Positions 20,545 through 23,937 of a stretch of DNA of 23,937 nucleotides are shown in pieces; the stretch's first letter is position 1; each line of letters begins with the position of its first letter. A program made the translations under genes and the position numbers. The notes below the pieces were generated by a model, which worked only from the letters and a program-made list of their open reading frames with translations, made no database searches and had not been told where the DNA came from. The DNA is from a virus: positions 1-23,937 of IMG/VR virus record IMGVR_UViG_3300025282_002100; one strand, written 5' to 3'.

Positions 20545-22125
20545 CTACAATCCTCCTAAATGGGCATCAACCGGCCCCTGTCGTTTCTTTTTTCGCAATG
20601 GCGATCCATACCATTGCACGGTTCCCGCCGGGGGCTGCAACGGGGGAGCCTTCAGGCCCGTCCGCGCACGGGGATGGCGCGAGAGGACGTGTTCCACGCA
20701 ATCCAGGGCATGATCGTTAACTTTATAGCGTTCGTATTTTCCGGCAGCGGTCGATTTATCCGGCCATTGAGCCGATTCGAGTTCATACGGCACCATCGTC
20801 AACCACGGAGCCAGATAAATCTGATCGTGCTGAAAATACTGACGGGCCGCTTCGGTGCGAACCTCGCGTCCCTGCTTGTTCGCCAGTAAATGTACCCCGT
20901 GGAGTAAACATTCCTGTTTGAACTGGGAATTACTGTCCACCCACGCCATCGGGCGTGTGTGCCAGATCGCCGCCATGCGTCTGAGGTCGTCACACCACCG
21001 CACGATAGAACTGTCCTGGTCGAGTTCGGGGGTATTGGCGACATACCGATAATTGGTCAATTCGTCCAGCAGATACGCCTGACCCTCCGGGGACACGCCC
21101 ACCACGACCGCGGCACAGTAGGTGCCGGTATCGGCTCCGATTTCGATATGCCAGTCGTGCGGCAGTTTAAAATTCTCCTTCACGGGACCAGCTTCCTGAT
21201 GTTTCCAGAGGGGCGCGTGATCCTGCATGGACAACATGCGGTCGCCCCGCTGATAATTGTAGACACGCCCCACGTAGTCACCGAGTTTCCCCAGATAGGC
21301 AATCGAGAACTGTTCCCGCGTCAGGAGTTGCTGGTCCCGGTCCATCGCGGCCTGATCGAAGCTATAGGGGTTGACGGTCGCCGGAATCCCGCATTTACAG
21401 ACCCAGTCGGGAAAATCGGGGTGGTCATGGCCGTGATCGTGGAAAATCTGCACCCACGGGCGGTCAGGCGTCGTCGGAAAGACGGCATAGCCCTTCCTGA
21501 CGCGCAAATTCTGGGCGATGGAGGTAAAACACTCAATTCCCGGCAACTGATACGCTTCACAGTAGACGTACGCATCGACTTCCTTGCCCTTGAGCGATTC
21601 TGACCGTTCCCAACTCCGCGCCTCGAACCGTGCCCCATTGTCGAGTTCCAGCCAGAGGCGTCCATCCTTCGGACGGTTCTGGAGCGACGCATAGGACTGA
21701 TTGAGTCCCCGTTCCGAGCAAATGGCTTCGAGGAGATAGTCAAATTCCGGGGCGGTCATGTCGTATTCGTTCCCGACCAGATAGACCGTGGCGTGTGGGA
21801 CCGCCGCAAAGGATGCCGCCCAGAGGCCCGCCCCTGCCGACTTGCCGGATTTGTACGCGCCGAGTTCCGCGACGACTTTGGCCCGTCCCGCCGGTCGGGG
21901 CATCATCAGGCGATGGGTGAGGGTGCCGTCAGGGAGGCGCACCTGCATCATCGGGTCAGTGCCCTGCGGATCGGCCTCAATTTCCGTCAGATCGTAGCCA
22001 TCCGTGGTCGCCCACCACGCCGCCTGATGCTCAAACGGAATAAATCCGATTTTCTCGCACAAAAACGTGCGAAAATCCGTCATCAGGCGATCTCGAAGGG
22101 CGGGTGGGACGTGTTTCTCAGCCAT
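20545..22125 (-). CDS. terL: Large terminase subunit (DNA packaging ATPase/nuclease)
   Basis: The 526-residue protein couples ATP hydrolysis to DNA packing into the prohead and cuts the DNA. The ATPase part has a Walker A-like AYKSGKS (90-96), Walker B with catalytic glutamate in VDAYVYCE (183-190) and a TTPDRPW coupling motif (218-224). The nuclease part shows the three acidic blocks of the RNase H-like fold: IEIGADTG (D332), WVDSNSQF (D397) and NDHALD (D471, D475). Length and layout match the family. GAGGTGA precedes the ATG by 10 bases. The last residues DAHLGGL encode the TTAGGAGG SD of the next gene. Confidence 0.93.
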   Translation of the reverse strand: MAEKHVPPALRDRLMTDFRTFLCEKIGFIPFEHQAAWWATTDGYDLTEIEADPQGTDPMMQVRLPDGTLTHRLMMPRPAGRAKVVAELGAYKSGKSAGAGLWAASFAAVPHATVYLVGNEYDMTAPEFDYLLEAICSERGLNQSYASLQNRPKDGRLWLELDNGARFEARSWERSESLKGKEVDAYVYCEAYQLPGIECFTSIAQNLRVRKGYAVFPTTPDRPWVQIFHDHGHDHPDFPDWVCKCGIPATVNPYSFDQAAMDRDQQLLTREQFSIAYLGKLGDYVGRVYNYQRGDRMLSMQDHAPLWKHQEAGPVKENFKLPHDWHIEIGADTGTYCAAVVVGVSPEGQAYLLDELTNYRYVANTPELDQDSSIVRWCDDLRRMAAIWHTRPMAWVDSNSQFKQECLLHGVHLLANKQGREVRTEAARQYFQHDQIYLAPWLTMVPYELESAQWPDKSTAAGKYERYKVNDHALDCVEHVLSRHPRARTGLKAPPLQPPAGTVQWYGSPLRKKKRQGPVDAHLGGL

Positions 22126-22135
22126 GCGTCGATGA

Positions 22136-22360
22136 TCACCTCAGTGCGGCAAGTGCCTGTGACCAAAACCCACCAGTCTGGACCTGTTCATCGATCCCTC
22201 CAGCGACGGGAAACCCTATTTGCTCACAGCGAGCACACCCACGTCCCGTGCCGATGGGGTCGTCAAAATGATCCAGCCACGCCGTCCCAAAGGCGCAGAC
22301 GAGTGCGTCGTCAGTCGCCGTCGAGCGTGGCCTGTCGAGCGCGAGTGAGAATTGACGCAT
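22136..22360 (-). CDS. Small unknown protein upstream of the large terminase
   Basis: The 74-residue protein has a perfect SD (GGAGG, 6 bases before ATG). It ends 10 bases before the terminase start and overlaps the previous gene by 50 bases. It has CARC near the middle (GCARCEQIGFPV) and a helix at the end. Frame support is moderate; no homology is recognised. The CxxC could be part of a metal site but only two cysteines are grouped. Confidence 0.5.
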   Translation of the reverse strand: MRQFSLALDRPRSTATDDALVCAFGTAWLDHFDDPIGTGRGCARCEQIGFPVAGGIDEQVQTGGFWSQALAALR

Positions 22361-22568
22361 ACGCCGCCTCCACCGTCATCGGATCGAGTCGCAACCACGC
22401 ACACCAGAGAATCAGGCTCTCGTTCGTATGATCAGAGAGAAAGTCCCGTGCGGTGGTCCGAAAATAACTCTGTTGCATTGGAGTGGTCCCGCCAACCTCC
22501 TGCACGTCCTTGACTGCCCGTAGGAGTACACTCAATGCGAGTTTATAATACGCTGTCTGATCGACCAC
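22311..22568 (-). CDS. Small unknown helical protein
   Basis: The 85-residue protein starts with GTG. GAGG lies 7 bases upstream of it, and it overlaps the sigma-like gene by 37 bases. It is helical: YKLALSVLLRAVKDVQEV (8-25), ARDFLSDHTNESLILWCAWL (40-59) and LDPMTVEAAYASILTRARQA (61-80). The phrase ...FL-x(8-10)-L-WC-x-LRLDP-x-V recalls small proteins that occur beside phage terminases, but I cannot name the family. A small terminase accessory role is possible. Confidence 0.68.
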   Translation of the reverse strand: MVDQTAYYKLALSVLLRAVKDVQEVGGTTPMQQSYFRTTARDFLSDHTNESLILWCAWLRLDPMTVEAAYASILTRARQATLDGD

Positions 22569-22933
22569 CGATGCGCCTCATTCGACGTGGTATCTATCGC
22601 ATCGTCCTGAGATGCCTTCCAGGCTCGGGCCATCTCAAGCACCTGCTCCCGTGGCGTCCGATGCACGGGAGGGGTCCAGGTCCGCTGTCGTGCTATCCGA
22701 CACCAGTCCCGTCGATGACTGGCGTTGTCCAGTCCCGTGCTGCCGTGGAGCGTCAGGTGCGTGGCGACGATCCCCATCTCCGTGAGCGTCCAGCGTATCC
22801 ACTTGTGCGCGTCCGCTTCATACTGACCCACCCGTGATCCGCTGATGCCGAGTTCGCGTCCCACTTCTTTCAGCGTGTATTTCCGATCACGCCCCCACCG
22901 CCGATAGAGGATATTCTGAAGTTTCTCTCGCAT
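22532..22933 (-). CDS. Small protein with sigma70 region-4-like helix-turn-helix
   Basis: The protein has 133 residues. Residues 17-46 (RKYTLKEVGRELGISGSRVG then QYEADAHKWI) match the layout of region 4 of sigma70 factors (TL-EVG-xLG-x-S/T-x-x-R-V-x-Q-x-E-x-x-A), which binds the -35 box of promoters. A basic region (75-100) and an acidic, charged end (105-133) follow. No region-2 domain is seen, so it is not a full sigma factor. It could bias transcription to late promoters, act as anti-sigma, or simply bind DNA near the packaging site. Start follows the previous stop by 8 bases; no strong SD. Confidence 0.72.
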   Translation of the reverse strand: MREKLQNILYRRWGRDRKYTLKEVGRELGISGSRVGQYEADAHKWIRWTLTEMGIVATHLTLHGSTGLDNASHRRDWCRIARQRTWTPPVHRTPREQVLEMARAWKASQDDAIDTTSNEAHRWSIRQRIINSH

Positions 22934-22941
22934 GACTGTCG

Positions 22942-23379
22942 CTAATTGGCCTTCCCCTGCTGCTCGTAGCGTTGCAGGAGGTCGTGATAAAACGACGCCA
23001 ACGGCGATTCCTTCCCCGCCATTCCCGCGACTTTCGCCTCAATCGACTGCCGACAGGTATCCGCCTTCAGCTTCGCCGCCCCGTCACATTCGGTATAGTT
23101 CGTCGTCCAGAGAAAATAGGCCATTTCGTTGTAATGTTTCCGCAGCGCGACATCGAGTCGTTGATCGTCCCCCAACTGGTGCCACGGCATCCCCCCACTC
23201 TGCTGTTCAAGGGCGCTCAACACCTCCGACTGCATCGGCCAGACTTCCTCGCACGCGATCAGCACCTCTTCCGGCTGTTCCTCGTCCCAGAAGTACCGGA
23301 CCGCTTCCGCGATGGGTGCCCCGGAGAGAATCATCGACGCGAGTTCCGTCGCTTCCCGCTTGGTCAACTGTCTCGTCAT
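22942..23379 (-). CDS. Probable small terminase subunit
   Basis: The 145-residue protein is all-helical by composition: REATELASMILSGAPIAEAV (8-27), PEEVLIACEEVWPMQ, ALRKHYNEMAYFLWTTNY (about 77-94) and TCRQSIEAKVAGMAGKESPL (108-127). The pattern K-H-Y-x-E-x-A-Y-F-L ... A-D-T-x-R-Q-x-x-E-A-K-x-A-G-M-A-G is one I associate with small phage proteins placed just ahead of large terminases and often named small terminase. Position agrees. GC at third positions is very high from its first codon. It overlaps the helix-turn-helix gene by 173 bases in another frame; GAGGAG lies 16 bases before ATG, somewhat far. Confidence 0.6.
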   Translation of the reverse strand: MTRQLTKREATELASMILSGAPIAEAVRYFWDEEQPEEVLIACEEVWPMQSEVLSALEQQSGGMPWHQLGDDQRLDVALRKHYNEMAYFLWTTNYTECDGAAKLKADTCRQSIEAKVAGMAGKESPLASFYHDLLQRYEQQGKAN

Positions 23380-23707
23380 GCGTCAATACCACTTTCTCCT
23401 CCCCACGGGAGGCTGTCGGAAACCGCAACGTCACCTCACATCCACAGGTGGTCGCATAGCGTAAAAACCAGCGCAACGTACTCGTCCCGCTTTTCCCACG
23501 TTTCTTATGAAAATACTGATAGAGCGCATTCGGCTTCACCCGCCACGCCGTCGCAATCTGACTCACCGAGAGTCCCGCCCGGAGCCGCATTTCCTCCAGC
23601 AAGTCCGAAAACCCCTCCACGGTCGCCGGATAGCGCAACGACACCTCCCCCGGACTCCCTGTCTGTGCCGATCTCCGCGCCGACACACTCATTCGCACTT
23701 TCCGCAT
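23207..23707 (-). CDS. XRE-like helix-turn-helix DNA-binding protein, uncertain C-terminus
   Basis: The open frame has 166 residues. Residues 30-75 (FSDLLEEMRLRAGLSVSQIA, then TAWRVKPNALYQYF) form an XRE-type helix-turn-helix. GTSTLRWFLRYATTCGCEVT (75-94) continues a believable domain. From about residue 110 to the end the sequence (RGTHRGSGPVLLGRGTAGRG) looks like the out-of-frame shadow of the small terminase gene. Were one base removed from the GGGG run at about residue 102, the frame would end at a TGA three bases before the next ATG, the spacing normal in this operon. The N-terminal start is uncertain: ATG here lacks spacing from the purine stretch; downstream GTG/ATG are possible. Likely an autoregulator at the head of the operon. 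Confidence 0.62.
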   Translation of the reverse strand: MRKVRMSVSARRSAQTGSPGEVSLRYPATVEGFSDLLEEMRLRAGLSVSQIATAWRVKPNALYQYFHKKRGKSGTSTLRWFLRYATTCGCEVTLRFPTASRGEEKVVLTHDETVDQAGSDGTRVDDSLRGTHRGSGPVLLGRGTAGRGADRVRGSLADAVGGVERP

Positions 23708-23880: not shown

Positions 23881-23909
23881 TCTATAGCCCCCCGTTCACG
23901 GGGAGTCAA
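23881..23909 (-). promoter_or_regulatory. Sigma70-type promoter with palindromic spacer
   Basis: On the minus strand TTGACT (plus-strand 23904-23909) and TATAGA (23881-23886) are separated by 17 bases. The spacer includes CCCCGT-GA-ACGGGG, a perfect 6-bp inverted repeat (23890-23903). A protein bound there would block RNA polymerase. The start of transcription would be near 23874, ahead of the whole leftward operon. Confidence 0.7.
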
Positions 23910-23936
23910 CACGGGGAACACGGGGAACACGGGGAA
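23910..23936. repeat. Three tandem 9-bp repeats CACGGGGAA
   Basis: Three exact copies of CACGGGGAA end at the window edge, so more copies may follow. The ACGGGG core is the same as one half of the palindrome in the neighbouring promoter spacer (23890-23903). They may be regulator half-sites or iteron-like binding sites. Confidence 0.75.
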
Positions 23937-23937
23937 C

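Follow-up and report, generated by a model that had tools for sequence, protein, structure and literature searches.

The terminase junction of an uncultivated phage holds an open reading frame whose product resembles region 4 of the sigma70 family, and the locus raises the question of what a phage does with this single piece of a sigma factor. A preliminary description of the same DNA had proposed that the protein redirects host RNA polymerase to late promoters. In this study, we examine the protein, its relatives and its genomic surroundings. The stretch of DNA analysed, referred to here as the window, is a virus record of 23,937 bases in which almost all genes lie on the minus strand.

Related loci and gene order

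Related loci were recovered from viral contigs using the window's large terminase (37 loci) and the conserved 145-aa protein encoded upstream of the sigma-4-like gene (68 loci). Dereplication of the loci left a set of 44 related phage lineages with strongly conserved genes for the head and for packaging. Among isolate phages, no relatives of TerL or of the 145-aa protein were found and the sigma-4-like protein gave weak matches only; a pattern scan of GTDB genomes found no relatives of TerL or of the sigma-4-like protein. The contig L002 is nearly identical to the window, with 4952 bases identical bar one gap, and adds 669 bases to it. Short repeats (CCCCGTGTT) were observed near the contig end, at 23885-23937 in the window and at L002:655-705.

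The gene order is HTH gene, 145-aa gene, sigma-4-like gene, 85-aa gene, possible 74-aa gene, terL, portal, scaffold-like gene and major capsid (Table 1). The first 37 nt of the 85-aa gene are shared with the 3' end of the sigma-4-like gene, and the 85-aa gene occurs in other phages without the sigma-4-like gene. No profile, PDB or convincing fold match was obtained for the 145-aa protein. It is a candidate terminase small subunit, a role assigned by position since the fold search gave no convincing fold, and it is a better candidate for this role than the sigma-4-like protein.

Table 1. Coordinates of the features at the terminase junction of the window
Feature	Position	Strand	Evidence or remark
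166-aa HTH protein, first gene of the operon	23207..23707	-	PHROG 1373 transcriptional regulator, E 1.1e-8
Conserved 145-aa protein, upstream of the sigma-4-like gene	22942..23379	-	Adjoins TerL or the slot in 68 loci; alignment
Stand-alone sigma-region-4-like HTH protein, 133 aa, pI about 10.6	22532..22933	-	Pfam, NCBIfam, L088 homolog
Region-4-like domain, residues 1-59 (part of 4.1 and the 4.2 helix-turn-helix)	22757..22933	-	
Basic C-terminal tail, about residues 60-133	22532..22756	-	Not conserved in the L088 homolog
85-aa accessory slot protein	22311..22568	-	Six-member alignment
Possible 74-aa gene	22136-22360	-	Between the 85-aa gene and the terminase large subunit
Terminase large subunit	20545..22125	-	PHROG 2, E 3.1e-12; 37 related loci

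The sigma-4-like protein and its domain

The Pfam family Sigma70_r4 (PF04545) matched residues 3-43 of the 133-aa protein with an E value of 5.7e-8 and 32.6 bits, against a curated cut-off of 24.1, and the segment TLKEVGRELGISGSRVGQYE falls within this match. The proposed likeness to the -35-binding helix-turn-helix of sigma factors was thus confirmed. The best NCBIfam match was RpoH (E 2.1e-6, or 3.9e-7 with residues 1-59 alone), RpoH and RpoS being the nearest full-length families, and a PDB search with a two-sequence profile recovered region 4 of RpoS at 2.5e-6. Sigma70_r2 (PF04542) was absent from the window and from seven related records, using a search that gave a match in 11 of 14 control genomes; this agrees with the preliminary statement that no other sigma regions are present. 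No recognised domain and no nuclease or recombinase motif was found in the C-terminal tail, and the gene gave no defence-family match.

An open frame as long as the one found here (168 codons) occurred in 71 of 1000 random stretches, so that its length is weak evidence for a gene. We regard 22532-22933 as a gene on the strength of its homology and of a codon score that was best in its own frame among the six.

When viral contigs were searched with the whole protein or its N-terminus, the only hits were L002, the full sigma factor L043 and the HTH protein L044. L044, an unrelated phage protein in which no other sigma region is present, matched Sigma70_r4 above the cut-off (E 9.4e-8). Since L044 matches equally well, the domain match alone does not imply contact with the polymerase. 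The frame at L043:3248-4744, two genes past a portal-like gene on a phage contig, encodes a long protein that looks like a true sigma factor and has both sigma regions, 2 and 4.

A second member of the family

A homolog of 139 aa is encoded in the same slot at L088:1342-1761, the contig L089 being identical to L088. It shares 53% identity with the window protein over 47 residues, and its Sigma70_r4 score lies exactly at the cut-off, 24.1. The helix-turn-helix domain is the only part common to the two proteins, whose tails and N-termini differ. Judged by sequence comparison, the occurrence of so divergent a homolog in the same slot confirms that the sigma-4-like frame represents a gene family.

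Copies of a direct repeat of 36 nt lie on either side of the L088 gene (1330-1365 and 1756-1791), with 30 of 36 positions identical as against at most 22 in shuffled copies. The repeat is a copy of the terL gene start, as would be expected of a cassette inserted at that point. In the window, a search of the sigma-4-like gene and its surroundings (22100-22960) gave no repeats.

Distribution at the terminase junction

We compared the 44 lineages for what lies between the 145-aa gene and terL. Nothing is present there in 17 lineages; 6 carry a member of the 85-aa family but not the sigma-4-like gene, 19 have other contents, and 2 possess the sigma-4-like gene, which is absent from the remaining 42. 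The two carrier lineages lie on separate, well-supported branches, and each has a sister without the gene. In those relatives of the window phage that carry the 85-aa gene, a linker of about 57 nt, which can encode a 22-codon peptide, replaces the sigma-4-like gene. A conserved mini-ORF of 22 codons with a CxCxxC motif (MANDECQCAACRAAEVILRGGR) was observed at this place, overlapping both neighbours, at L004:1136-1204, L024:5676-5744 and L035:2688-2756.

Other slot genes include L103:982-1479, with a weak Mom-like match, and the gene or genes at L100:1229-3291, with a weak PAPS-reductase match; by eye, these slot genes also resemble DNA cytosine methylase, and they are possible counter-defence genes. 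The contents of the slot, including the Mom-like and PAPS-reductase matches, indicate that it accommodates accessory genes. The gene had been placed inside the packaging cluster, a location that is correct, but the place proved to be a variable accessory slot. While the head and packaging genes are conserved, 42 of the 44 lineages do without the sigma-4-like gene, which is moreover third in its operon, and it is therefore unlikely to be the general late-gene switch of the group.

Promoter-like sites and operon control

Two sigma70-like promoters in the operon had formed part of the earlier proposal. Between 18000 and 23937 we found four such sites, compared with 2.8 +/- 1.7 in shuffles, and only two of them, at 9 of 12 matches, are on the operon strand; the sites are therefore at chance level.

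In some lineages the inverted motif TCCA-N6-TGGA lies in the region upstream of the first HTH gene, with 10 occurrences in all against 0.26 expected. Arrays were located at L002:384-512 (upstream of the window's end), L105:2435-2471 and L110:132-167, with five exact copies in L002 beyond the end of the window. The array is a candidate operator. The motif was also considered as a target of the sigma-4-like protein and rejected, because the sites are found in lineages without its gene as well. The gene for the 166-aa HTH protein was present in all 32 lineages with enough upstream sequence to test, and this protein is a better candidate regulator of the operon than the sigma-4-like protein.

Recognition residues, core-binding positions and structure model

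Residues were numbered on what we take to be the corresponding stretch of sigma70. The numbering is consistent with the residues listed in PMC4943231. Recognition of the -35 bases by sigma70 is set by R584, E585 and R588 (PMC2613000), the counterparts of which are G32, S33 and G36 in the window protein and Y, S and R in the L088 homolog. Six core-binding positions have been published. Of these, the window protein retains R562 and G577 unchanged, has conservative changes at F563 and L598 (the four being, in sequence order, R12, W13, G25 and I46) and has lost E555 and I565. From this comparison of base-reading and core-binding residues, canonical -35 recognition by the 133-aa protein appears unlikely, and DNA binding with another specificity is plausible. 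Assignment of the protein as a sigma factor of the sigma70 family was rejected on the absence of region 2 from the window and the seven related records and the lack of conservation of the base-reading residues.

The structure model of the 133-aa protein was poor, with a mean pLDDT of 56.5 and helices at residues 2-15, 21-27 and 32-52, and every Foldseek match of the model had an E value above 1. In fold, the HTH of this poor model is similar both to sigma region 4 and to HTH domains of the Lrp type (Z 4.6-6.7), and the UPF0122 structures 1xsv and 1s7o were among its fold matches (Z 5.6 and 5.2).

Comparison with known systems

The protein shares with sigma70 region 4 (PF04545; RpoH, RpoS) the 4.1/4.2 layout with the pattern TL.EVGRE.G, and the modelled helices are in the expected order. 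It differs from the sigma70 family in that neither the protein nor the genome piece contains a region 2, R584, E585 and R588 are replaced, and the basic tail is of another kind. Like the UPF0122 (YlxM-type) proteins, it is small and has a sigma-4-like HTH without any other sigma region; this likeness, however, is at the level of the fold only and was not found by sequence, and UPF0122 proteins are bacterial.

Proposed role and alternatives

We favour, with moderate confidence, the interpretation that the gene is an accessory one and encodes a small, basic, stand-alone HTH protein derived from sigma region 4, which binds DNA and serves as an auxiliary transcription regulator. The N-terminal 55 or so residues would descend from, or at least closely resemble, region 4 of the sigma70 family, and the gene would have entered the slot between the probable terS and terL in a small number of the lineages that make up this uncultivated group of phages. 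The N-terminal domain is predicted to fold as a sigma-4-type helix-turn-helix and may, through its altered recognition helix, bind DNA with a specificity of its own. The protein would be expressed alongside the packaging genes and act as an auxiliary regulator of phage or host genes, and its basic tail could carry another function. The domain match, RpoH and RpoS as the nearest families, the sporadic distribution on separate branches, the second member in the same slot, the direct repeat around the L088 gene, the changed base-reading residues and the high pI support an accessory regulator; the lack of repeats at the window's gene, the poor model, the Lrp-type resemblance and the four of six core-binding positions that are kept or conservative count against it.

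An unlikely alternative, though the one that fares best, is a late-gene activator of the RinA/ArpU/Ltr type of Gram-positive phages, binding the promoter of the packaging operon. Ltr proteins are small and basic, of about 130 aa (PMC13123087), a description that the length and charge of the 133-aa protein fit, and its gene is also near the terminase genes. However, it lies behind the probable terS and not ahead of a late promoter, no promoter or repeats were found near it, and most relatives do not carry it. No ArpU or RinA profile appeared among the NCBIfam matches listed up to E 10, where filters drop weak ones, and the conserved HTH gene in first position fits the role better.

The sporadic distribution and the direct repeats around the L088 copy could also be those of a mobile-element remnant, a homing-nuclease or transposition-associated HTH with no current role in transcription, and L044 shows that an HTH of the Sigma70_r4 type can occur in a phage protein that lacks the other sigma regions. 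We consider this somewhat less probable still, as the tail is without a nuclease or recombinase motif, the frames are intact in two divergent members and codon use is gene-like.

The role originally proposed, in which a region 4 mimic docks on the flap of the host polymerase and redirects it to late promoters in the manner of T4 gp33 or a split sigma, we regard as improbable. It would account for the region 4 homology and for the kept or conservative R562, F563, G577 and L598; a search of the kin records gave no match to a single-subunit phage polymerase, although it had no positive control and nothing firm follows from it. As with the gp33/gp55 split sigma of T4, a small phage protein would stand in for region 4, but no gp55-like or other region 2 partner was found here, and gp33 of T4 neither shows recognisable homology to sigma factors nor reads DNA sequence (PMC2988020). 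Redirection to late promoters is further opposed by the absence of the gene from 42 of 44 lineages, its third place in the operon, the changed base-reading residues, the chance level of promoters and the match of L044 without other sigma regions. A more speculative variant, which we hold to be just as doubtful, is that the detached region 4 has kept its polymerase-docking surface and lost -35 reading, so that it would dock on the host flap and either link the polymerase to a new DNA element lying upstream or displace the host's own region 4, as an optional terminase-slot add-on exchanged between phages.

HTH domains are common in small terminases. A terminase small subunit, or an accessory packaging factor whose HTH binds the packaging site, would agree with this domain and with the position of the gene directly upstream of the large terminase module, but it is the least probable of the explanations, given that Pfam, PHROGs and NCBIfam yielded no match to a terminase profile, small subunits included, that the 145-aa gene is the one conserved beside TerL across the group, and that the sigma-4-like gene is dispensable there (2 of 44 lineages).

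Conclusions

The match of L044 to the same profile illustrates the limits of a domain match, and placement of the gene across 44 lineages argues against a master late switch. The analysis also identifies, at the terminase junction of this group of uncultivated phages, a slot into which accessory genes insert. Stand-alone sigma-4-like domains such as the one described here are a simple way in which phages could make new regulators from parts of the host transcription machinery.
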